Positions 973 to 11,074 of a stretch of 13,150 nucleotides of DNA are shown here, in pieces; the stretch's first letter is position 1; every line of letters starts with the position of its first letter. Source of the DNA: Pseudomonadota bacterium (GTDB lineage Bacteria > Pseudomonadota > Gammaproteobacteria > Burkholderiales > Thiobacillaceae); assembly GCA_021802595.1 (NCBI GenBank), contig JAJZRT010000033.1:1-13150 (forward strand). Direction: 5' to 3'. The translations under genes and the position numbers were made by a program. The notes beneath the pieces are model-generated. The model had not been told where the DNA came from, searched no databases, and saw only the letters and a program-made list of their open reading frames with translations.

Positions 973-1410
973 TCAGTCCAGATGGGCCTGCACCCAGCGC
1001 ACGATTTCCTGCGCGCCCATGGCGCCGGGCTGGCGCGCGATCTCGCGCCCGCCCGAGAACAGCGCCAGGGTCGGGATGCTGCGGATGCCGAACTGGGCGC
1101 CGAGCTGCTGCTCGGCCTCGGTGTCGACCTTGGCGAGCCGCACCCCGGGTTCGAGCAGGCGCGCCGCCTGCTCGAACTGCGGCGCCATCATCTTGCACGG
1201 CCCGCACCACGGGGCCCAGAAATCCACCAGCACCGGGATGTCGCTGCGCTGGATGTGTTTGCCGAACGTGGCGGCGGTGAGCGCCACCGGATGGCCGCTG
1301 AACAGCGGCTGGTGGCACTGGCCGCACCTGGGGTCCTGCGCCAGCCGGTCGGCGGGAACGCGGTTCACCGCGTGGCAGTGGGGACAGACGATGTGGCGTG
1401 AATCGCTCAT
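973..1410 (-). CDS. trxC: Thioredoxin 2 (TrxC type) with N-terminal zinc motif
   Basis: A 145-residue cytoplasmic thioredoxin. The N-terminal extension has two CxxC pairs (Cys9/Cys12 and Cys29/Cys32), the zinc-binding hallmark that separates TrxC from TrxA. The thioredoxin fold follows, with active site WCGPC (Cys69/Cys72) and the cis-proline segment SIPT. There is no signal peptide. The family reduces protein disulfides using electrons from thioredoxin reductase, and in E. coli TrxC is linked to oxidative stress. The start is set by GGAG eight bases upstream of the ATG. It is the last gene of the tight minus-strand run, 32 nt after ftsH, so it is probably co-transcribed with the chaperone and protease genes. 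A thioredoxin is also a recurrent member of heat-resistance islands, which suits this context. Confidence 0.95.
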   Translation of the reverse strand: MSDSRHIVCPHCHAVNRVPADRLAQDPRCGQCHQPLFSGHPVALTAATFGKHIQRSDIPVLVDFWAPWCGPCKMMAPQFEQAARLLEPGVRLAKVDTEAEQQLGAQFGIRSIPTLALFSGGREIARQPGAMGAQEIVRWVQAHLD

Positions 1411-1442
1411 GGTGTTCTCCGTGAAACGGGTTGCGTTGCGCT

Positions 1443-3290
1443 CTATGTGGGGCTGGATTCGCCGCTGCCAAGCGCGGGCCTGCGCAAATCCCGGGTCAGC
1501 TCGCGGATAGCGTTTTCGTCCAGGGTTTCGCGGGCGAGCAGTTCGCGCGCGCAGCGCTCGAGCACCGCGCGGTTGTCCTCGAGCAGACCCGAGGCGCGGT
1601 TGAACACCTTCATGACGATGCCGCGCACGGCCCCGTCGATGCGGGCCTGGGTCGATTCCGCCACGCGGCAGCCGCCGGCGACCATGTCGGGCACGTCGAG
1701 GAAGCGCGGGCGCTGCGCGTCATAGGCGATGTAGCCGAGATCCTCGTCCATGCCGTAGCGGGTGATCATGTCGCGGGCGATGTCGGTGGCTTTCGCCAGG
1801 TCGTCGGCCGCGCCGGTGGTGAGCTCGCCGAACACCAGCTTTTCCGCGGCGCGCCCGCCGAGCAGCACGGCGATCTTGTTCTCCAGTTCCTGCCGCGTCA
1901 TCAGGTAGCGGTCCTCGGTGGGGCGCTGGATGGTGTAGCCGAGCGCGCCGATGCCGCGCGGGATGATCGAGACCTTGTGCACCGGGTCGGTGCCGGGCAG
2001 CGCCAGCGCCACCAGCGCGTGGCCCATTTCGTGGTAGGCCACGGTCTCGCGTTCCTTGTCGTTGAGGATGCGGTTCTTCTTTTCCAGGCCGGCGACGATG
2101 CGCTCGACCGCGGCGGTGAAGTCGGCCAGCGTCACCGCGTCGGCCTTGCGGCGCGTCGCCATCAGCGCCGCCTCGTTCGCCAGGTTGGCGAGATCGGCGC
2201 CGGAAAAGCCGGTGGTGAGCGCGGCCACCTGTTCCAGGTCGACCTCGGGCGCGAGCTTGATCTTCCTGACATGCACCTTGAGGATGGCCAGCCGGCCCTG
2301 CTTGTCGGGGCGGTCGACCAGCACCTGGCGGTCGAAGCGGCCGGCGCGCAACAGCGCGGGGTCGAGGATCTCCGGCCGGTTGGTGGCGGCGAGGATGATC
2401 AGCCCCACCGAGCTGTCGAAGCCGTCCATTTCGGTGAGCAGCTGGTTCAAGGTCTGCTCGCGCTCGTCGTGGCCGCCGATGGGCCCGGCCGCGCCGCGCG
2501 CGCGGCCCAGGGCGTCGAGCTCGTCGATGAAGATGATGGCCGGCGCCTTCCCGCGCGCCTGCTCGAACAGGTCGCGCACGCGCGCCGCGCCGACGCCGAC
2601 GAACATTTCCACGAACTCGGAACCGGAGATGGAGAAGAAGGGCACCGCCGCCTCGCCGGCCACCGCCTTGGCCAGCAGCGTCTTGCCGGTGCCGGGCGGG
2701 CCCACCAGCAGCACGCCCTTGGGGATGCGCGCGCCGAGCCGGCCGTATTCCTGCGGATTCTTCAGGAAATCCACCACCTCGGCGAGTTCCGCCTTGGCCT
2801 CGTCCACGCCGGCGACGTCGGCGAAGGTGACGCCGGTGTCCTTCTCCACGTAGACCTTGGCGCGGCTCTTGCCGAGGGTCATGAAGCCGCCCATGCCCTG
2901 CTTCTCGGCAAAGCGGCGGAACAGGAAGAACCATACCGCGAAGAAGGCCACCGCCGGCAGCACCCACGACAGCAGATCGCGCAGGAAGGTGCTCTCGATC
3001 ACGCGCGCGTAGGGCACGCCGTACTGCGACAGGCGCGCGGCGAGATCGGGCTCGACGCGGGTGGCGACGATCACCGTCTTGCCCTTCGCGTCGGGGTTTT
3101 TCAGCTTGCCGGTGAGCGTCTTGTCCGACACCAGCACCTCGGCCACGCGGCCCTCCTTCAGCGCCTGCTCGAATTCGCTGTACGGCACCGGCTCCACGCT
3201 GCTTGCCGCCTGCCACCAGTTTTGCAGCGTCAACAGCAGCATGATGGCGATCAGCCAGTAGGTGAGATTCCATTGGGTTTTCTGTTCCAT
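1443..3290 (-). CDS. ftsH: FtsH-family membrane AAA+ zinc metalloprotease
   Basis: A 615-residue ATP-dependent protease anchored in the inner membrane. Transmembrane helices lie at about 10-22 and 107-124, with a small periplasmic domain between them. The AAA+ module has Walker A GPPGTGKT (197-204), pore loop FVGVG (230-234), Walker B IIFIDE (252-257) and the second region of homology with Arg315 and Arg318. The peptidase has zinc motif HEMGH (420-424) and a probable third ligand Asp497. The zinc motif differs from the usual HEAGH by Ala to Met, which keeps both histidines and the glutamate. At 615 residues it is a little shorter than E. coli FtsH (644), mainly at the C-terminus. The family degrades misassembled membrane proteins and some cytosolic regulators, including sigma-32 in E. 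coli. Its setting in a chaperone operon, rather than beside rrmJ/ftsJ and folP, suggests an accessory stress paralogue; that is inference. It starts 15 nt after the M48 gene. Confidence 0.96.
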
Positions 3291-3305
3291 GCATGTCCCT
3301 CGCGA

Positions 3306-4250
3306 CTAGCGCCAGATGCCGCCGGGATGCCAGCGCGGCACGCCGCGGGCAGGCGGCGCGGCAGCGGGTGTGTCGGCCGCCACCTGCCAGGCATCGGGCG
3401 TGGCCGGCTGCGCCAGCGACAGCAGGCGGCGGATGCGTTCCTCGGTCGCGGGATGGGTGCGCAGCCAGGAGGGTTCGGGGTTGCCCCATCCCGGCAGCAG
3501 CCAGCCCCGCCAGCTGCCCGACACCCGCTCGATCTTGGCCAGCGCCGAGGCCAGCGCCTGCGGGTCGCCGGTGAGGCGCGCGGCGGCGAGGTCGGCATCG
3601 AACTCGCGCACCCGCGACAGTCCGAGTTGCGCGAGCAGGGCGAGATGCGGCGAGAAGGCGAGCACCAAAAGGCCCAGCCAGGGCACGTCGGCCTCGCCCG
3701 CCAGCCAGCCCGGCAACAGCAGGATCAGGAAGGCCTGCCCCGCCAATGCGAACACGCCGGTCAAGCGGCTGACGTAGTCGGCGAGGTTCATCACCTTGAG
3801 ATCGTCATGGGCGATGTGGGCGATTTCGTGGGCCAGCACGCCCGCCAGCTCGCGCGGGCCGAGGCTGGCGAGCAGACCGTCAGTGAGCGCGATTGCCGAC
3901 TGCCGCCGGTTGCCGACGGCGAAGGCGTTGACCACGGGGCTGGGAACGAAATGCGGCGCGGGCACTGCAGGCAGTCCCGCGCGCGCGGCCAGCCCCTGCA
4001 GCGTGCGCCAGAGCTGCGGCGCCTCGGCCGGATCGATCGGACGCGCCCGGTACAACGCGAGGGTGAGCCGGGTGGCCGCCAGCGGCTCCACCACCAGGGT
4101 GGCGAGCGTGGCGGCCAGCGCCAGCCACAGGCCGCTCTCGCCGAACAGGACGTACCCGGCCAGGCCGCCGATGGCGAACAGTGCGACGACCAGCAGCAGC
4201 GTCTGCAGGCGGTTGGCGGCGTCATGCCCGGACAGGGCCACGCGGTTCAT
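3306..4250 (-). CDS. M48-family (HtpX-like) membrane metalloprotease
   Basis: A 314-residue integral membrane zinc protease. Hydrophobic segments lie near 16-38, 42-60, 165-185 and 190-210. The HEXXH motif is HEIAH (141-145), preceded by GVLA, and the third zinc ligand is Glu216 in REFDAD. A THP motif (265-267) with following arginines matches the conserved C-terminal part of M48B proteases (THPATEERI). The active site should face the cytoplasm, as in HtpX, where it cooperates with FtsH in removing damaged membrane proteins. Placement directly between cbpM and ftsH fits that partnership. The start is 4 nt past the cbpM stop, with only a weak purine-rich ribosome site, so translation is probably coupled. 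The C-terminal tail (281-314) is proline- and alanine-rich. I call it HtpX-like rather than htpX because the overall match cannot be measured here. Confidence 0.92.
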   Translation of the reverse strand: MNRVALSGHDAANRLQTLLLVVALFAIGGLAGYVLFGESGLWLALAATLATLVVEPLAATRLTLALYRARPIDPAEAPQLWRTLQGLAARAGLPAVPAPHFVPSPVVNAFAVGNRRQSAIALTDGLLASLGPRELAGVLAHEIAHIAHDDLKVMNLADYVSRLTGVFALAGQAFLILLLPGWLAGEADVPWLGLLVLAFSPHLALLAQLGLSRVREFDADLAAARLTGDPQALASALAKIERVSGSWRGWLLPGWGNPEPSWLRTHPATEERIRRLLSLAQPATPDAWQVAADTPAAAPPARGVPRWHPGGIWR

Positions 4251-4254
4251 CGCT

Positions 4255-4560
4255 TCATCCGCCGAGCCGGTGCACGCGGGTGCGCAACGCGTCCAGTTCC
4301 TCCAGCAGGTCGGCCACCAGCGCCGCGAGTTCGGGCACGGCGTCGAAATCGCGCTCCAGTTCGCGCATGCGCTGGGCGTGGACGAGCGCCGCGCCGGAAA
4401 AACGCCACACCCCGGCGACGCTTTCGGCGTGCGGAATCAGTCCTTCTTCCAGATGCCGGACGAGCCAGTCCGGCTCGACGGCGCACGCGGCGGCCATCTG
4501 CTCCAGCGTCAGCCAGCTGTCCTCCATCAGGGTGCCGATCAGGATGTCGTCGTCACGCAT
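4255..4560 (-). CDS. cbpM: CbpM-type chaperone modulator (MerR-like fold)
   Basis: A 101-residue protein with an N-terminal helix-turn-helix-like segment (residues about 16-60, including LTLEQMAAACAVEP and the wing-like GVWRFSGAAL). A charged C-terminal helix follows (61-98). This is the CbpM/MerR_2 pattern. CbpM proteins bind the J-domain of CbpA and stop it from stimulating DnaK. The assignment rests on the pattern plus the position immediately after cbpA, the standard pairing. Only 3 nt separate the cbpA stop from this ATG. Its ribosome site AAGGGAG lies inside the end of cbpA, so the two are translationally coupled and probably made in fixed ratio. Confidence 0.88.
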   Translation of the reverse strand: MRDDDILIGTLMEDSWLTLEQMAAACAVEPDWLVRHLEEGLIPHAESVAGVWRFSGAALVHAQRMRELERDFDAVPELAALVADLLEELDALRTRVHRLGG

Positions 4561-4563
4561 GAC

Positions 4564-5520
4564 TCATCTCCCTTGCCGTGGATCGAAGGCGAATTCCTTC
4601 GCCATCTGTTCATAGAATTCTCGCGCGCGCGGCGTGTCGGCTGGCGGCAGCACGACCTCGACGGTCAGCAGGAGATCGCCCGGCGGTTCGCCGGGAATGC
4701 CCTTGCCGCGCACCCGCAACTGGCGGCCGGACTGCGCGCCCTCGGGGATGCGCACCTTCACGGGGCCGCCCGGCAGGTCGACGCTGACGACCGCGCCCAG
4801 CGCCGCTTCCCAGGGCGCCACCGGCAGCGTCATGTAAAGGTCACGCCCCTCCACGCGAAAACGCGGATGCGGCTTGAACTGCACCTCCAGCAGCAGGTCG
4901 CCGGGCGCCCCGCCCTGGAACCCCGGCGCGCCCTGGCCGGCGAGGCGGATCACCTGGCCGGCCTTGATGCCCTTGGGAATCTTCACGTTGAGCGTGCGCG
5001 ACTCCAGCGTCACCCGGCCCTGGGCGTCCATCTTGGGCGCGCGCAGCGAGATCTGCCGGGTGGCGCCGGTGAAGGCATCCTCCAGGTCGAGCAGCACCTT
5101 GGCGTGATGGTCCTCGCCCTGCATGCGACCGCCGCCGCGGCCGGCATGGGCCTGGCCGAAGTCGCGCCCGCCCATGCCGGCGCGACCGAAGATCTGCTCG
5201 AAGAAATCGGAAAAGCCCGCCGCCTCGTCCGGGCGGTAGCCGTGGCCGGAAAACTCGAAGCCGGCGTCCCAGTCGGGCGGCGGCCGGAAGTCCTTCCCCG
5301 GTTGGTAGCCCTTGCCCAGCTGGTCGTAGGCCACGCGCTTCTCCGGATCGGACAGCACCGCGTAGGCCTCGTTGACGTCCTTCATGCGCGCCTCGGCGTC
5401 CTTTTCCTTGGACACGTCCGGGTGGTACTTGCGCGCCAGCTTGCGGAAGGCCTTCTTGATGTCGTCTGCCGTGGCGTCGCGCGGCACGCCCAGCACCTCG
5501 TAGTAGTCCCTGAATTGCAT
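4564..5520 (-). CDS. cbpA: CbpA/DnaJ-class J-domain co-chaperone
   Basis: A 318-residue co-chaperone. The J-domain spans residues 4-70 and carries the HPD signature (33-35) needed to stimulate the ATPase of DnaK/Hsp70. A Gly/Phe-rich region follows (about 86-135). The two C-terminal substrate-binding subdomains (about 140-305) contain the repeated IPKG...G and IPEG...G signatures (181-200 and 258-275). There is no cysteine zinc-finger domain, so it is a class II (CbpA) J-protein rather than DnaJ. It is the first gene of the minus-strand operon and has a sigma-32-like promoter about 50-75 nt upstream. The ribosome site (AAGAAG) is modest. It is followed immediately by its modulator gene cbpM. 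Confidence 0.95.
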
Positions 5521-5570
5521 GGCGATCTTCTTGTCGGATGGAAGGGTTGGTTATGGTCGGCCTGTTTTTT

Positions 5571-5597
5571 ATGGGTGTTCGCCGGCGCGTTTTCAAG
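5571..5597 (-). promoter_or_regulatory. Sigma-32 (RpoH)-type promoter of the cbpA operon
   Basis: On the minus strand a perfect CTTGAA (RC of 5592-5597) and ACCCAT followed by AA (RC of 5571-5576) are separated by 15 nt. The RpoH consensus is CTTGAA, 13-15 nt, then CCCCAT, so only one core base differs. The predicted transcript start falls about 40 nt before the cbpA ATG. All five downstream genes are proteostasis genes, which supports heat-shock control. Confidence 0.72.
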
Positions 5598-5802
5598 GCG
5601 TTGAAATTTATTCTTCGGCTACCAAATAAAACACAGGAACGGCTGCTATGTTTTGTATGCAGGGCCAGATGACGTTTTCATCGTAGCGCATGCGAGCAGG
5701 TTCGTCGTGACAAGACGTGCGCGGCATGAAAACCCCGGCCGGAAGGAAGACACCCGTTCCACCGCCCCCGGCACGCAAGCGTCCGGATTTCATTGTCAAT
5801 GA

Positions 5803-5808
5803 AAGGAG
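5803..5808 (+). promoter_or_regulatory. Ribosome binding site that fixes the dsrC-like start
   Basis: AAGGAG sits 7 nt before the ATG at 5816. The open frame extends upstream to 5717, but the extra 33 residues are proline- and basic-rich, have no family match and no comparable ribosome site. The 5816 start is therefore preferred. Confidence 0.75.
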
Positions 5809-5815
5809 TGAATCG

Positions 5816-6196
5816 ATGGTCAACCCCGTACCCATTCCCATACTCGCCGCGATTCAGGGCAAGCAAATGATCCGCAACCACTGGGGCGACCTGGTGGAAA
5901 TCGACGAGTGGTCGCACGACATCGCACGCAAGCTGGCGGCAGAGGCGGGCATCGAACTGACCGATGCGCACCTGGAAGTGCTGGACTACCTGCGCGACTA
6001 CGTGATCAACCAGGGCGGCAGCGAGGAGGATGCCCACAAGATCCTGCTCGCCCTGGAACACCGTTTCGCCGACCAGGGCGGCAGCCGCTGGCTCTATACG
6101 CTGTTTCCCGGCGGGCCGGTGACCCAGGGCATGAAGATTGCCGGCCTGCCGGAGGCCCCGCACGCAGTCGACCGCTCCTTCGGAACGGCCCGGTAA
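5816..6196 (+). CDS. DsrC/TusE-family protein lacking all cysteines
   Basis: A 126-residue protein recognisable as DsrC/TusE family. It has the EIDEWSHDIARKLAAEAGIELT block (29-49), LEVLDYLRDY (53-62), and the C-terminal signature LYTLFPGGPVTQ...KIAGLP (93-112). In DsrC the C-terminal arm carries two redox cysteines, and TusE keeps only the penultimate one. Here the first position (QACK in DsrC) is Met106 and the second is Ala117. The protein has no cysteine at all and runs on for nine residues past that position (to DRSFGTAR). It therefore cannot carry persulfide or form the trisulfide that DsrC passes to sulfite reductase or that TusE uses in tRNA thiolation. Cysteine-free family members have been suggested to be regulatory. 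It is divergent from the cbpA operon (296 nt between starts) and 144 nt upstream of hsp20 on the same strand, with no clear terminator between them. A stress-linked binding or regulatory role is inference. Confidence 0.85.
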   Translation: MVNPVPIPILAAIQGKQMIRNHWGDLVEIDEWSHDIARKLAAEAGIELTDAHLEVLDYLRDYVINQGGSEEDAHKILLALEHRFADQGGSRWLYTLFPGGPVTQGMKIAGLPEAPHAVDRSFGTAR

Positions 6197-6340
6197 GGAT
6201 GTGCCGTGGCCGGTACCGATTGGCGACAATAAACGGATATGGCGATCTTGAATGTTGAAAAATTTCGCCTAAGCTTGAGGAGCGCCCCCAGACAGCGCGA
6301 GAACCGAATCCATCAACCAACCCATCAGTGAGGAACGATC

Positions 6341-6784
6341 ATGGCCAACATCACCCGTTACGACCCCTTCAACCTGATCAGCAGCGATCCGTTCGGCGAT
6401 CTCGACGAGTTGTTCAAGGGTTTCTTTGTACGCCCCGCCCTGCTGGAGGGCCAGACCAAGATGCAGATCAAGATGGACGTCAAGGAGGACGACAAGGCCT
6501 ATACCGTCCATGCCGACGTCCCGGGCGTGAAGAAGGAGGATATCCAGGTCAGCATCGACGGCAACCAGGTCTCGATCAGCGCCGAGACCAAGGCGGAAAA
6601 GGAAGAGAAAAAAGGCGAGAAAGTGCTGCGCGCCGAGCGCTACTACGGCAAGGTGGAACGCAGCTTCACCCTGCCGCATGAGGTGGACGAGGCTCGCGCC
6701 CAGGCCAAATATACCGATGGCGTCCTGGAACTGACGCTGCCGAAAAAAGCCCCTGCCACGGTCAAGAAGCTCGCGATCCAGTAA
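6341..6784 (+). CDS. hsp20: Small heat-shock protein, Hsp20/alpha-crystallin family
   Basis: A 147-residue ATP-independent holdase. A short N-terminal arm (1-40) precedes the alpha-crystallin domain (about 42-138), which includes DVPGVKKEDIQVSIDG and the signature GVLELTLPK (127-135). The C-terminal tail ends KKLAIQ, which supplies the L-x-I anchor (144-146) used in oligomer assembly. The family binds unfolding proteins and hands them to DnaK/ClpB-type refolding machines. The start is supported by TGAGGA seven bases upstream. A CTTGAA at 6247-6252 would suit a sigma-32 -35 box, but no good -10 follows at the right distance. It is the last gene of the rightward pair and is closed by a strong terminator. 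Confidence 0.96.
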   Translation: MANITRYDPFNLISSDPFGDLDELFKGFFVRPALLEGQTKMQIKMDVKEDDKAYTVHADVPGVKKEDIQVSIDGNQVSISAETKAEKEEKKGEKVLRAERYYGKVERSFTLPHEVDEARAQAKYTDGVLELTLPKKAPATVKKLAIQ

Positions 6785-7330: not shown

Positions 7331-7891
7331 CTATTTCTTCTTCCGGTAATACCCCACCAGTTCGGCCTGCGCCAGGATGTGTCCCTGCATCGCCTTTTCC
7401 AGCGCAGCCTTGGTCGCCGGCTGCAGAACCGGCAGCACGGTATCGAGCGCGTACAGCTTGTGAAAATAGCGATGGCGGCCAATGGGCGGACAGGGGCCGC
7501 CGTAGCCGGTGCGCTGCCAGTCGTTGAGGCCCTCGCGCGTGCCGGCCGGCAAGGCCGCAGGCGGCACGCCGGCCGCGAAGCCGGTGGTGGCGGGCGGGAT
7601 GTTGTACAGCACCCAGTGCACCCAGGTCATCTTCGGGGCGGCCGGGTCGGGGGCGTCGGGATCGTCGACGATCAGCGCCAGGCTCTTCGTCCCGGCCGGC
7701 ACGCCGGACCACGCCAGCGGCGGCGACTGGTCGCGGCCCTCGCAGGTGTGCAGGCTGGGGATGTCGGCGTTCGAGGCGAATGCGCTCGATGTCAGTTCCA
7801 TGTTCGTGCTCCTTTCCGCGGCATTGGCGATCCCGCCCGCCAGGGCGAGTGCGATGCCGGTTCCGATCAGCGTGCGTGCTGCATTCCGCAT
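7331..7891 (-). CDS. PEBP family (YbhB/YbcL-like) protein with signal peptide
   Basis: A 186-residue protein from ATG at 7891, supported by GAGGAAG five bases upstream. Residues 1-24 form a Sec signal peptide (hydrophobic ALALAGG, cleavage near ANA). The phosphatidylethanolamine-binding fold shows the ligand-pocket motif DDPDAPDP (76-83), TWVHWVLYNIP (89-99) and the second conserved motif GRHRYFHKLYALD (138-150). Cys50 and Cys134 could form a disulfide after export. Bacterial members bind small anionic ligands; their physiological role is poorly known. A second strong ribosome site inside the gene precedes Met31 (position 7801), where cytoplasmic YbhB-type proteins normally begin, so two forms may be made. 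It lies 181 nt downstream of the proton-ATPase gene on the same strand. Confidence 0.93.
   Translation of the reverse strand: MRNAARTLIGTGIALALAGGIANAAERSTNMELTSSAFASNADIPSLHTCEGRDQSPPLAWSGVPAGTKSLALIVDDPDAPDPAAPKMTWVHWVLYNIPPATTGFAAGVPPAALPAGTREGLNDWQRTGYGGPCPPIGRHRYFHKLYALDTVLPVLQPATKAALEKAMQGHILAQAELVGYYRKKK
7809..7814 (-). promoter_or_regulatory. Internal ribosome binding site for a cytoplasmic PEBP form
   Basis: On the minus strand AAGGAG lies 7 nt ahead of the in-frame ATG at 7801 (Met31 of the exported form). This is a better site than the one serving the signal-peptide start. Translation from here would yield a 156-residue protein without the signal peptide. Confidence 0.55.
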
Positions 7892-8072
7892 GCATGCTTC
7901 CTCTGTTCGGCTTGAAATATAGACCGCCTTGCGGACGGCGCGCGGGGCTGTCCTTCGACGTGCGAAGGGCGAACGGACCGGGATGGTCTGCGCCTGGGTG
8001 GAGTCGTCGATGGGTTTGGCACTGAGTACTCCATTCACCGTCCTGCCGAACCCCATTCCGATCATGTCCGGG

Positions 8073-10517
8073 TCAGGCGGCTGCCGGGACACGCCATTTG
8101 ATCAGCGCCACTTTCAGGGCGTCGTTCACGACCAGGCAGGCCACCAGCGCATACGCGAAAATCGCGAACGTCTGCCCCCACGGCAGCGGCCTCAGTCCGG
8201 GCAGGCCGACGAGCGTCAGGGCGGTGCCCGCGAGCGCCCCGCCGAGCAGGGACACGACAAAAGCCTTGCTGGGCATCGTCGCCCAGAACCATTTGCGCTC
8301 TCGCACCGACACGATGGAAAACACGCAGAAATACAGCAGCGTCAGGAAGCTGAAGGTATCGAGCGCGTTGGCGTCCGTGGCCAGGCCGAAGCGCGGCCAG
8401 CCGAACCACAACAGGAGGAGCGTTTCAGCCACCATCACTATGCCGAGGACCACGGACACCATGATGAAGCCGCCGATTGCCCACGTCTCCGGGTTCCTGG
8501 ATGGGCGAACGCGGTCGGTGGCCAGGGCGATCGTCGCGAAGTCCATGACGAAGACGAGCAGCAGCATCGCGAAGGCGGAGACGACGAACTGGCCGGTAGC
8601 CACGAAGGCGATGGACACGAAGGCCGCCTTCAGGATCGTGCGGCTGATCTTGTTGATGATCCAGGTCAGGATGCGCTGGTAGATCGTCCGCCCCTGCTCG
8701 ACCAGCGCCACGATGTTGGTGAGGCCCGGTTCGGTCAGGACGACGCTGGCCGCCCCCTTGGCGACGTCGGTCGCGCTGCTGACGGCGATGCCGACTTCGG
8801 CCTGGCGCAGCGCGGGGGCGTCGTTGACGCCGTCGCCGGTCATGCCGGTCACGTGGCCGGCAGCCTGCAGGTGCTGCACCACGATGTACTTGTCCTCGGG
8901 GTAGACCTCGGCGAAGCCGTCGGCGTCCGCCAGCAGGTCGACCGCCTCGTTGCCGGGCTGGGCGGCCGCCGCCTTGAGATCGGCCACACGCCGGATGTTG
9001 GGCAGGCCGACACCGTGCGCGATTTCGCGCGCGACGGCCACGGCATCGCCGGTGAGCATCTTCACCGCCACGCCGAGGTCGCGCAGGGTGGCGATGAGTT
9101 GCGCGGCGTCCGGACGCGGCGGGTCGACCAGGCTCACCAGACCGAGCAATGTGGGCGTGCCCGTTTCGGGACCGCGCGCGACCGCCAGGGTGCGGTAGCC
9201 CTTCGAGGCCGATTTGCTGGCCCGCGCCTCCAGCACCTCGATGTCCGGCGGCGGCATCCCGCAGGCAGTAGCGAGGGTGCGCACGGCGCCTTTCATCACG
9301 CGCAGCCGCTGGCCGTTCTGTTCGACCACGGCCTCGGTGTGCCGGGTCTGCGCATCGAACGGTGCGAAGGAGACGGGCGTGGCCGCGCCGACGCCGTCGA
9401 AGACGTGCCGCGCGTCGGCCGCGGCGAGAAAGGCCAGGTCGATCGGGTCCTGGTTGGCCGCCTGCGACGCCAGCGCGCCGGCGGACAGCACGTCGGCTTC
9501 CGTCGCCGTTCCCAGCGGGATCACGCCGGTGACGGCCAGCTGGTTGAGGGTGATCGTGCCGGTCTTGTCCACGCACAGCACGTCCATCGTCGCGGCATCC
9601 TCGGCGGCGCTGAGACGGGTGACGAGCACGCCGCGCTTCGCCAGTTCCTTCGAACCGAGCGCCATGCTGACCGTGAACATGACCGGCAGGGCGACCGGCA
9701 CCGCGCTCATCAGCAGTACGAGCAGCAGGGGCGCCATTTCGAGGAAGGGCACGCCGTGCATCAGCGACAGCACGAAGACCACGGCGAGCAGGCTGCTGAC
9801 GATCACGAAGAGCCCGCGCACCACCTTGGCCACCACGGCTTCGATGTGCAGCTGCGGACGCGCCCGCTGCACGAGTTCGGTGGTGCGGCCGAAGTAGGTC
9901 TGCGTGCCGGTCAGCATCACCACGCCGTTGCCTTCGCCATGGCGGACGACGGAGCCTGACGACAGCGCGTCGCCGGGGGCCTTGTCGACCTCCTGCGATT
10001 CGCCGGTGAGGGCCGACTGATCGACGCTCAGGGCGCCGTCGAGGAGCTTCACGTCGGCCGGGACGAGGTCGCCGGCACGCACGCGGACGATGTCGCCCGG
10101 CACCAGCTCACGGGCGGGAATCACCTGCCAGATGGCCTCGCGCAGGACGCGTGCATTGACCTGCAGGCGCTGCCGCAGGGTTTCGACCACGCCGGCCGCG
10201 CGGCGCTCCTGCAGGAAACCCAGCACGGCATTGACGACCAGCAGCGCGCTCACCACGGCGAGATCGGAATATTTCCCGAGCAGGGCCGACAAGGCCATGA
10301 TCAGTTCGAGCATCCACGCCGACACGCCCCAGAACTTGGCGAGAAACTGGCGGACCGGGTGAGACCTCCGTTCGGCCACCTCGTTGTAGCCGTGCGCCTG
10401 CCGGCGGACATTCACCTCGGCAGCGGTGAGCCCCGTGGCGGGATTCACGCCGAGCGCGGCAAGCGCATCGGGCAGCGAGGCGGTGGCGAGATCAGGTGTC
10501 TGGGCAGGCGCGGGCAT
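8073..10517 (-). CDS. P-type ATPase, type IIIA (proton-pump-like)
   Basis: An 814-residue cation pump with all P-type signatures. These are the actuator TGES (171-174), phosphorylation site DKTGT (Asp317), MLTGD (487-491) and hinge TGDGVNDAP (560-568). Helices are visible at about 66-80 (M1), 86-101 (M2), 235-255 (M3), 262-285 (M4, with PVALP), and six in the C-terminal half (about 625-805). In M6, Asp659 aligns with the proton-binding Asp of plant and fungal plasma-membrane proton pumps, and the following DRVRPS matches their DRVKPS. The N-terminal heavy-metal domains of type I pumps are absent, as is the long C-terminal autoinhibitory tail of plant pumps. It should export protons at the cost of ATP, supporting cytoplasmic pH control. 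No good ribosome site precedes the ATG. The universal stress gene lies 110 nt upstream and PEBP downstream, all on one strand, suggesting joint stress expression. Substrate is inferred from motifs. Confidence 0.93.
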   Translation of the reverse strand: MPAPAQTPDLATASLPDALAALGVNPATGLTAAEVNVRRQAHGYNEVAERRSHPVRQFLAKFWGVSAWMLELIMALSALLGKYSDLAVVSALLVVNAVLGFLQERRAAGVVETLRQRLQVNARVLREAIWQVIPARELVPGDIVRVRAGDLVPADVKLLDGALSVDQSALTGESQEVDKAPGDALSSGSVVRHGEGNGVVMLTGTQTYFGRTTELVQRARPQLHIEAVVAKVVRGLFVIVSSLLAVVFVLSLMHGVPFLEMAPLLLVLLMSAVPVALPVMFTVSMALGSKELAKRGVLVTRLSAAEDAATMDVLCVDKTGTITLNQLAVTGVIPLGTATEADVLSAGALASQAANQDPIDLAFLAAADARHVFDGVGAATPVSFAPFDAQTRHTEAVVEQNGQRLRVMKGAVRTLATACGMPPPDIEVLEARASKSASKGYRTLAVARGPETGTPTLLGLVSLVDPPRPDAAQLIATLRDLGVAVKMLTGDAVAVAREIAHGVGLPNIRRVADLKAAAAQPGNEAVDLLADADGFAEVYPEDKYIVVQHLQAAGHVTGMTGDGVNDAPALRQAEVGIAVSSATDVAKGAASVVLTEPGLTNIVALVEQGRTIYQRILTWIINKISRTILKAAFVSIAFVATGQFVVSAFAMLLLVFVMDFATIALATDRVRPSRNPETWAIGGFIMVSVVLGIVMVAETLLLLWFGWPRFGLATDANALDTFSFLTLLYFCVFSIVSVRERKWFWATMPSKAFVVSLLGGALAGTALTLVGLPGLRPLPWGQTFAIFAYALVACLVVNDALKVALIKWRVPAAA

Positions 10518-10627
10518 CGCACGGGCAGTCAGGGTTCTGGGTCGAAATCATGCGCGGCTCCGGGCGTGGCGCATGCCTGTTGCGCTGACCCGCCTGGGCG
10601 ACGTCCGTTCCCTGGCGCCGCGCCGCG

Positions 10628-11074
10628 TCACTTGCCGCGGATCAGCAATACCGGTTTGGTGGCGACGCGCACCACGCCCTCGGCCACGCTGCCGAGCAGC
10701 AGGTGGCTCAGCCCACGGCGTCCGTGGGTGCCGATGACGATCAGGTCGGCCGGCCAGGTATCGGCGTCGGTCGCGATCATTTCCGGGATGCGGTGGCCGA
10801 GCGTGTCGATCTCGATCAGCCCGGTCTCCGTCGCGACCCCGGCGGCGCTCGCCACCGACGCGGCCTTGTGGAGGATGGTCTGTCCCCCCTTGATCATGGC
10901 ATCCCAGATCTCGGACGGATTGGGAAATTCCGCGCTCAGGTTGAGATTGACGTTATCCACCACATGCACGATCCGCAGCTGGGCCTGCACTTCGCCCGCC
11001 AGCTTGATCGCTTCCTGCAATGCCAGTTCCGCGGTGTGGCTTCCATCCACGGCCACCAGGATACGTTTGAACAT
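10628..11074 (-). CDS. Universal stress protein (UspA family), ATP-binding type
   Basis: A single 148-residue Usp domain. It starts with the beta-strand and acidic residue [12 protein letters not shown] (Asp10) and ends with the nucleotide-binding motif G-x2-G-x9-G-S (Gly115, Gly118, Gly128, Ser129). That motif marks the ATP-binding subgroup rather than the UspA type that lacks it. The start is set by AAGGAGG six bases upstream of the ATG. It lies 110 nt upstream of the proton-ATPase gene on the same strand. Usp proteins promote survival under energy, acid and oxidative stress, and the pairing with a proton pump is consistent with that. No specific partner is known. Confidence 0.94.

Follow-up and report, generated by a model that had tools for sequence, protein, structure and literature searches.

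The established role of DsrC is to carry sulfur, and this role turns entirely on its cysteines. TusE, which belongs to the tRNA 2-thiouridine sulfur relay, requires a penultimate cysteine. RspA is said to have been described (Venceslau et al. 2014) as a cysteine-independent DsrC-like regulatory protein. The gene considered here, dsrCx, encodes a DsrC-family protein without any cysteine and is located on a 13,150-nucleotide stretch of DNA from a member of the Thiobacillaceae (assembly GCA_021802595.1, contig JAJZRT010000033.1), referred to as the window. The labels dsrCx and hsp20a, hsp20b, hsp20m and hsp20n were coined in this analysis. We tentatively read dsrCx as a redox-dead mimic of DsrC under heat-shock control that putatively docks on the partners of DsrC.

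In the accessible parts of the literature, persulfuration of DsrC is seen at the penultimate cysteine only (PMC3397948) and a putative regulatory role of DsrC is mentioned (PMC7787665). DsrC-like proteins lacking one or both cysteines are described from phages (PMC4164917, PMC8190135, likewise in their accessible parts); they share with dsrCx the DsrC family and the loss of cysteine.

The dsrCx protein and its C-terminal arm

The gene and its diagnostic region are as follows.

5816..6196, forward strand: dsrCx (dsrC-like gene), encoding a cysteine-free DsrC-fold protein with the tail AGLPEAPHAVDRSFGTAR; assigned by PF04358 (73.6 bits) and a predicted model resembling DsrC structures
6116..6193, forward strand: C-terminal arm and tail (residues 101-126), with Met106 and Ala117 replacing the two cysteines, His116 and the tail DRSFGTAR; from alignments

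The open reading frame translates into 126 amino acids, none of them cysteine. Its score exceeds the curated cut-off of the Pfam family DsrC (24.9 bits), as it does that of NCBIfam TIGR03342 (70.7 bits, cut-off 53.5), and the predicted structure agrees with DsrC structures, which places the protein in the DsrC/TusE superfamily. The signature motifs LFPGGP (residues 96-101) and KIAGLP (107-112) are intact, as an earlier interpretation of the window from its letters alone (the sequence-only reading) had stated. Alignment with DsrC-family chains puts Met106 at the first arm cysteine position (Cys-A), and counting on from AGLP puts Ala117 at the second (Cys-B). The alignment and the translation thus agree with that reading on the replaced redox positions, the absence of cysteine and an arm unfit for known DsrC or TusE chemistry. 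Its nine-residue run-on needs adjusting: nine residues do follow Ala117, but the extension proper comprises eight because canonical DsrC already has one residue after the cysteine position.

With DsrC the protein shares the fold and the arm core ..LFP.GP..Q..KIAGLP.., and members of both kinds occur in the same genomes. In contrast to DsrC in the strict sense, which has two redox cysteines in the arm, dsrCx lacks Cys-A and Cys-B, carries the eight-residue tail extension and is encoded in a chaperone cluster instead of a dsr cluster. TusE has the same fold, and a plasmid-borne TusE of E. coli is 37.4% identical over residues 9-113. However, dsrCx has Ala117 where the penultimate cysteine of TusE stands and reaches only 62.4 bits against the TusE equivalog NF008562 (cut-off 191). 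Because DsrC is persulfurated at its penultimate cysteine only, according to the accessible part of PMC3397948, dsrCx is unable to carry sulfur by known chemistry.

The island clade, the wider tail clade and the tie to dsrA

A protein search returned 148 relatives at E <= 0.001, the best 120 of which are listed. Cysteine is absent from dsrCx and from its 35 closest relatives among the matches listed (P0001-P0036; 121 sequences read), one of which (P0029) is fragmentary and does not include the arm. These relatives rule out a local mutation, which the sequence-only reading had considered as a possible source of the cysteine loss. Homologues adjoining hsp20 are likewise cysteine-free, and the gene recurs in other cbpA/hsp20 neighbourhoods, whose lack of it would have counted against that reading. 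A family alignment and tree had also been proposed there. In the resulting midpoint-rooted tree of 151 DsrC-family proteins, which its program flagged for a small number of columns and for long branches, the 11 cysteine-free members from such loci (window plus 10 genomes) form one clade with support of 100/99, here called the island clade. It is nested in a clade of 86 members (98/95).

The carriers of the island clade form a small group. They comprise eight of the 117 genomes in the family of L001, the nearest relative of the window (176-238 bits), and two further genomes, G150 and G194, found when 399 genomes of the order were sampled. At class level, with 369 genomes sampled, none except G001 scores above 118 bits. 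An alignment of 33 members shows no variation at G105, A109, L111, P112, H116 and G123, with M, T, A or S occupying the Cys-A position. The gene is under purifying selection: its reading frame is intact in all 11 loci, and the ratio of nonsynonymous to synonymous substitution rates (dN/dS) is 0.045-0.167 across the five pairs given, with rough estimates in two pairs of dS >1.2. These values, together with the conserved tail, argue against a duplicate in decay that hitchhikes with useful neighbours. The lack of a match at E <= 1e-35 in 109 of the 117 family genomes and the varying surrounding genes would suit such a duplicate, a reading that was already disfavoured and is hardly credible.

Unlike the phage-borne DsrC-like proteins, dsrCx had no relative in a pattern scan of viral contigs. 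A phage origin was rejected: matches in phage records number only two (31-37% identity), of which one carries a TusE annotation and the other none. Carriage on plasmid islands was likewise set aside. Among 72,556 plasmid records, 14 have a match to dsrCx, none of them exceeding 37.4% identity; eight of the 14 are annotated as tusE and six are unannotated.

A tail of the form [FY]-G-[ST] is found in 86 of the 151 DsrC-family sequences. Among the 84 tailed sequences with a pattern-readable arm, the Cys-B position is never cysteine, and the Cys-A position varies (Cys 40, Ser 26, Met 11, Thr 4, Gly 2, Leu 1). The island clade therefore looks, from these sequences, like a cysteine-free offshoot of a larger branch that lacks Cys-B. 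Each of the eight family genomes carrying it also encodes a two-cysteine DsrC and further paralogues, and further cysteine-free arm types without the dsrCx-type tail coexist in the same genomes. Throughout 11 genomes of the Thiobacillus family (L005-L016, L117-L156), 5-10 DsrC-family genes per genome were observed, with at least eight arm endings that include a Cys-A-only ACKIAGM.RPRAWSTG type and cysteine-free types ending in KPFGKGGY or KTKGEH.

The genomic context differs between branches of the tail clade. One branch is located beside soxA, a flavocytochrome c gene and a gene that we take by eye to be soxB (Pfam gives a 5'-nucleotidase domain only); others lie, judged by eye, between housekeeping genes. 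No relative of hsp20 or cbpA is found at 34 non-island tail-clade loci; of 14 class loci inspected with flanks of about 1.5 kb, 10 likewise show none. At L073 and L081, a tail-clade gene is paired with a strongly diverged second DsrC-like gene and, by eye, a formylglycine-enzyme-like gene.

The tail clade tracks dsrA. All 34 genomes of the order sample with a match to the A3 profile (E <= 1e-25, all reaching the tail) have dsrA, which is present at E <= 1e-30 in 87 of the 399. The class sample contains 31 genomes with a tail-reaching match at E <= 1e-20, and 26 of these have dsrA (119 of 369 overall). Matches ending before model position 121 were excluded from this count, and internal-stop matches in G606 and G700, both with dsrA, were dropped. 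Fisher's test gives p = 8e-26 for the order and 8e-10 for the class, values that are overstated by shared ancestry. The sequence-only reading had pointed to protein quality control or stress sensing rather than sulfur trafficking; the co-occurrence with dsrA and the branch beside sox and flavocytochrome c genes speak against this separation. A chaperone role severed from sulfur is therefore not favoured.

The distribution among sulfur oxidisers, together with His116, which adjoins the lost Cys-B position and is invariant in 33/33 members, could also be taken to mean that dsrCx is a sulfur-relay protein in which another residue or a bound ligand replaces cysteine. Zero cysteines and the single persulfuration site of DsrC in the accessible part of PMC3397948 make this very improbable.

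Another reading is a regulator of the RspA type, in which a cysteine-free DsrC-like protein would act on the island or the dsr genes at the level of transcription. RspA reportedly belongs to the DsrC superfamily and needs no conserved cysteine. The acidic charge of dsrCx was considered as an argument against DNA binding and is too weak, as canonical DsrC is likewise acidic. We consider such a regulator rather unlikely.

The chaperone neighbourhood and candidate heat-shock control

The genes around dsrCx in the window are listed below.

6341..6784, forward strand: hsp20b, a small heat-shock protein gene, next downstream of dsrCx on the same strand (PF00011, 89.3 bits)
4564..5520, reverse strand: cbpA, a DnaJ-type co-chaperone, divergent from dsrCx (PF00226, PF01556)
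4255..4560, reverse strand: cbpM-like gene of a MerR-type small protein (PF13591, 36.3 bits)
3306..4250, reverse strand: HtpX-like M48 metalloprotease of the tLST type (PF01435; 65.0% identity to plasmid HtpX)
1443..3290, reverse strand: FtsH of the tLST type (TIGR01241; 85.4% identity to a plasmid-borne E. coli FtsH encoded close to clpK)
973..1410, reverse strand: thioredoxin of the tLST type, Trx-GI (PF00085, PF21352; 71.5% identity to an annotated trx-GI)

The setting beside hsp20 and cbpA noted in the sequence-only reading recurs in the relatives, where part of the gene calls came from a custom codon-usage script. An hsp20 gene adjoins dsrCx in 11/11 loci, nine of which have cbpA in divergent orientation to the operon. 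A common hsp20a lies upstream in nine of the 11 loci, in 9/9 on the same strand at 11-39 nucleotides. The window and L001 have no hsp20a upstream of dsrCx and a different hsp20 downstream; the hsp20a of L001's genome is located on another contig. A remnant of hsp20a in the gap between cbpA and dsrCx of the window was sought, and blastn gave only short, weak matches. In L054, grpE (presumably, by eye), dnaK, three hsp20 genes, dsrCx and dnaJ are encoded on one strand, with psiE opposite.

This tight spacing, the constant hsp20 neighbour and the position between dnaK and dnaJ in L054 are consistent with a dedicated helper of small heat-shock proteins, which would bind Hsp20a or DnaJ and tune substrate release without a link to sulfur. 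Such a helper, close to the view taken from the sequence alone, is possible though doubtful. The tie of the tail clade to dsrA and the absence of hsp20 and cbpA relatives from the non-island loci and most of the inspected class loci stand against it. So do the family genomes: of 20 that have a close hsp20a (>=64% identity), 12 are without dsrCx, which likewise excludes strict dependence on hsp20a. Strict dependence on htpX is also rejected: five of 11 genomes with a full-length tLST-type htpX (>=60%; a partial match in G087 left out) are without dsrCx, and none is seen in the fetched stretches of the five loci L176-L180.

Promoters were scored against a sigma32 consensus. Each p-value derives from 200 random sequences of first order, and no correction was made for the 19 regions scored. 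Three candidates are found in the window.

6247..6275, forward strand: sigma32-like candidate before hsp20b (CTTGAAT, 14 nucleotides, CCTAAGCT; window p 0.29)
5600..5629, forward strand: sigma32-like candidate before dsrCx (GTTGAAA, 15 nucleotides, CCAAATAA; p 0.085, not significant)
5569..5597, reverse strand: sigma32-like candidate before cbpA (CTTGAAA, 14 nucleotides, ACCCATAA; 0/200 random sequences as high)

The candidate before hsp20b lies at equal distance in L001 and L002, with p 0.23-0.33 over the three loci, and alone is not significant. Candidates with p <= 0.04 occur in six of 11 operon upstream regions and in three of five cbpA upstream regions. Heat-shock control of the operon, which the sequence-only reading had proposed to test, is plausible from these predicted sites, except that the site before dsrCx in the window itself falls short. 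An RNA thermometer was rejected, as an Rfam search of positions 5300-6500 yielded a single sub-threshold match.

The trx-ftsH-htpX block resembles, in gene content and identity, the mobile stress-tolerance island tLST (tLST/LHR/TLPQC). All three genes are present in seven of the 11 loci; a contig end cuts ftsH in L049, the 6.7-kb contig L070 has htpX only, and none of the three is seen within the 16 kb examined of L051 and L054. The further tLST modules degP, psiE or kefB are found in several relatives' loci and not in the window. In contrast to tLST, the block adds cbpA-cbpM and dsrCx, and clpK, yfdX and hdeD were not found in the examined stretches of the window and the 10 related loci. The accessible part of PMC8290217 gives dna-hsp20-clpG as the tLST core and describes the origin of tLST as unsettled. 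By this definition, with hsp20 present and the core gene clpG/clpK not found in those stretches, the block is a relative of tLST and no member of it. A tLST-like clpK-cls-ftsH-psiE-htpX-degP run was observed in the same family at L179 (G027:C6), with no dsrCx seen in the fetched stretch. In L048 (134-912 and 1409-2194), kefB is in three broken frames, and an extra zinc-ribbon frame, by eye perhaps a transposase, lies between trx and ftsH.

Elsewhere in the window, a patatin-like phospholipase with a lipoprotein-type start (PF01734) is encoded at 1-760 on the reverse strand. The region after hsp20 (7331-11074) encodes a PEBP-family protein, what looks by eye like a P-type ATPase, and a universal stress protein; in L001, this place is taken by a DnaJ carrying four zinc-finger motifs.

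The literature search found no DsrC-like protein described in an hsp20 or tLST setting, subscription papers being mostly beyond reach. As far as these searches show, three things are new: a clade marked by a conserved tail, the association of that clade with dsrA, and the constant hsp20 neighbourhood of one of its branches in a tLST-like block. The link of the gene to its heat-shock setting had been put forward from the sequence as a candidate for something undescribed; the case is less new than that, since the category of cysteine-free DsrC-like proteins reportedly already has a name through RspA.

A possible docking role under stress

The retained arm core with a new tail, the organisms with a Dsr pathway and the chaperone neighbours are best fitted by a non-chemical docking protein that acts under stress. 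As the redox-dead mimic tentatively proposed above, dsrCx would be produced together with small heat-shock proteins when Dsr-type sulfur oxidisers respond to heat shock; we infer its heat induction. It retains the predicted DsrC fold and the core of the arm that DsrC inserts into its partners; both of the cysteines that carry sulfur are replaced, and the conserved D-x-S-F-G-T tail is an addition. Most likely it would bind at least one normal DsrC partner (DsrEFH, DsrAB, DsrL/DsrMK or Tus/MnmA-type), accepting no sulfur. The bound protein may brake or shield the sulfur machinery during heat or oxidative stress and perhaps pass it on to the Hsp20/DnaJ chaperones of its operon. A more specific version, which we regard as unlikely, is a pathway-specific chaperone adaptor: the predicted arm would plug the DsrC site of sulfur-oxidation enzymes and bring them to Hsp20a/DnaJ, halting sulfur flux and keeping the enzymes safe until the stress ends. 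On this version, the D-x-S-F-G-[ST] tail clade as a whole would consist of DsrC-type docking parts without chemistry, with a separate operon for each.

Several observations weigh against the docking mimic. The model shows the new tail as disordered (residues 118-126, predicted local distance difference test <50), and five of the 11 operon upstream regions, the window's included, lack a significant sigma32-like site. Sister branches occur in other gene contexts, so the operon neighbours need not be partners, and hsp20a works without dsrCx in the 12 family genomes mentioned above. The tie to dsrA, inflated by shared ancestry, belongs to the whole tail clade and not to the island member alone, and five of the 31 class genomes with a tail-clade match show no dsrA (G571, G597, G772, G787, G801).

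The evidence suggests that cells reuse the shape of DsrC as a putative non-chemical docking protein in stress. If true, the DsrC fold would serve here purely as a docking part, and protein quality control would be linked to sulfur energy metabolism. The block at 973-4250 in the window, with <=85.4% identity to heat-resistance plasmid proteins, is a lead on the origin of tLST. The cysteine-free branch bears on why sulfur oxidisers keep 5-10 DsrC-family genes, as in the 11 genomes above.
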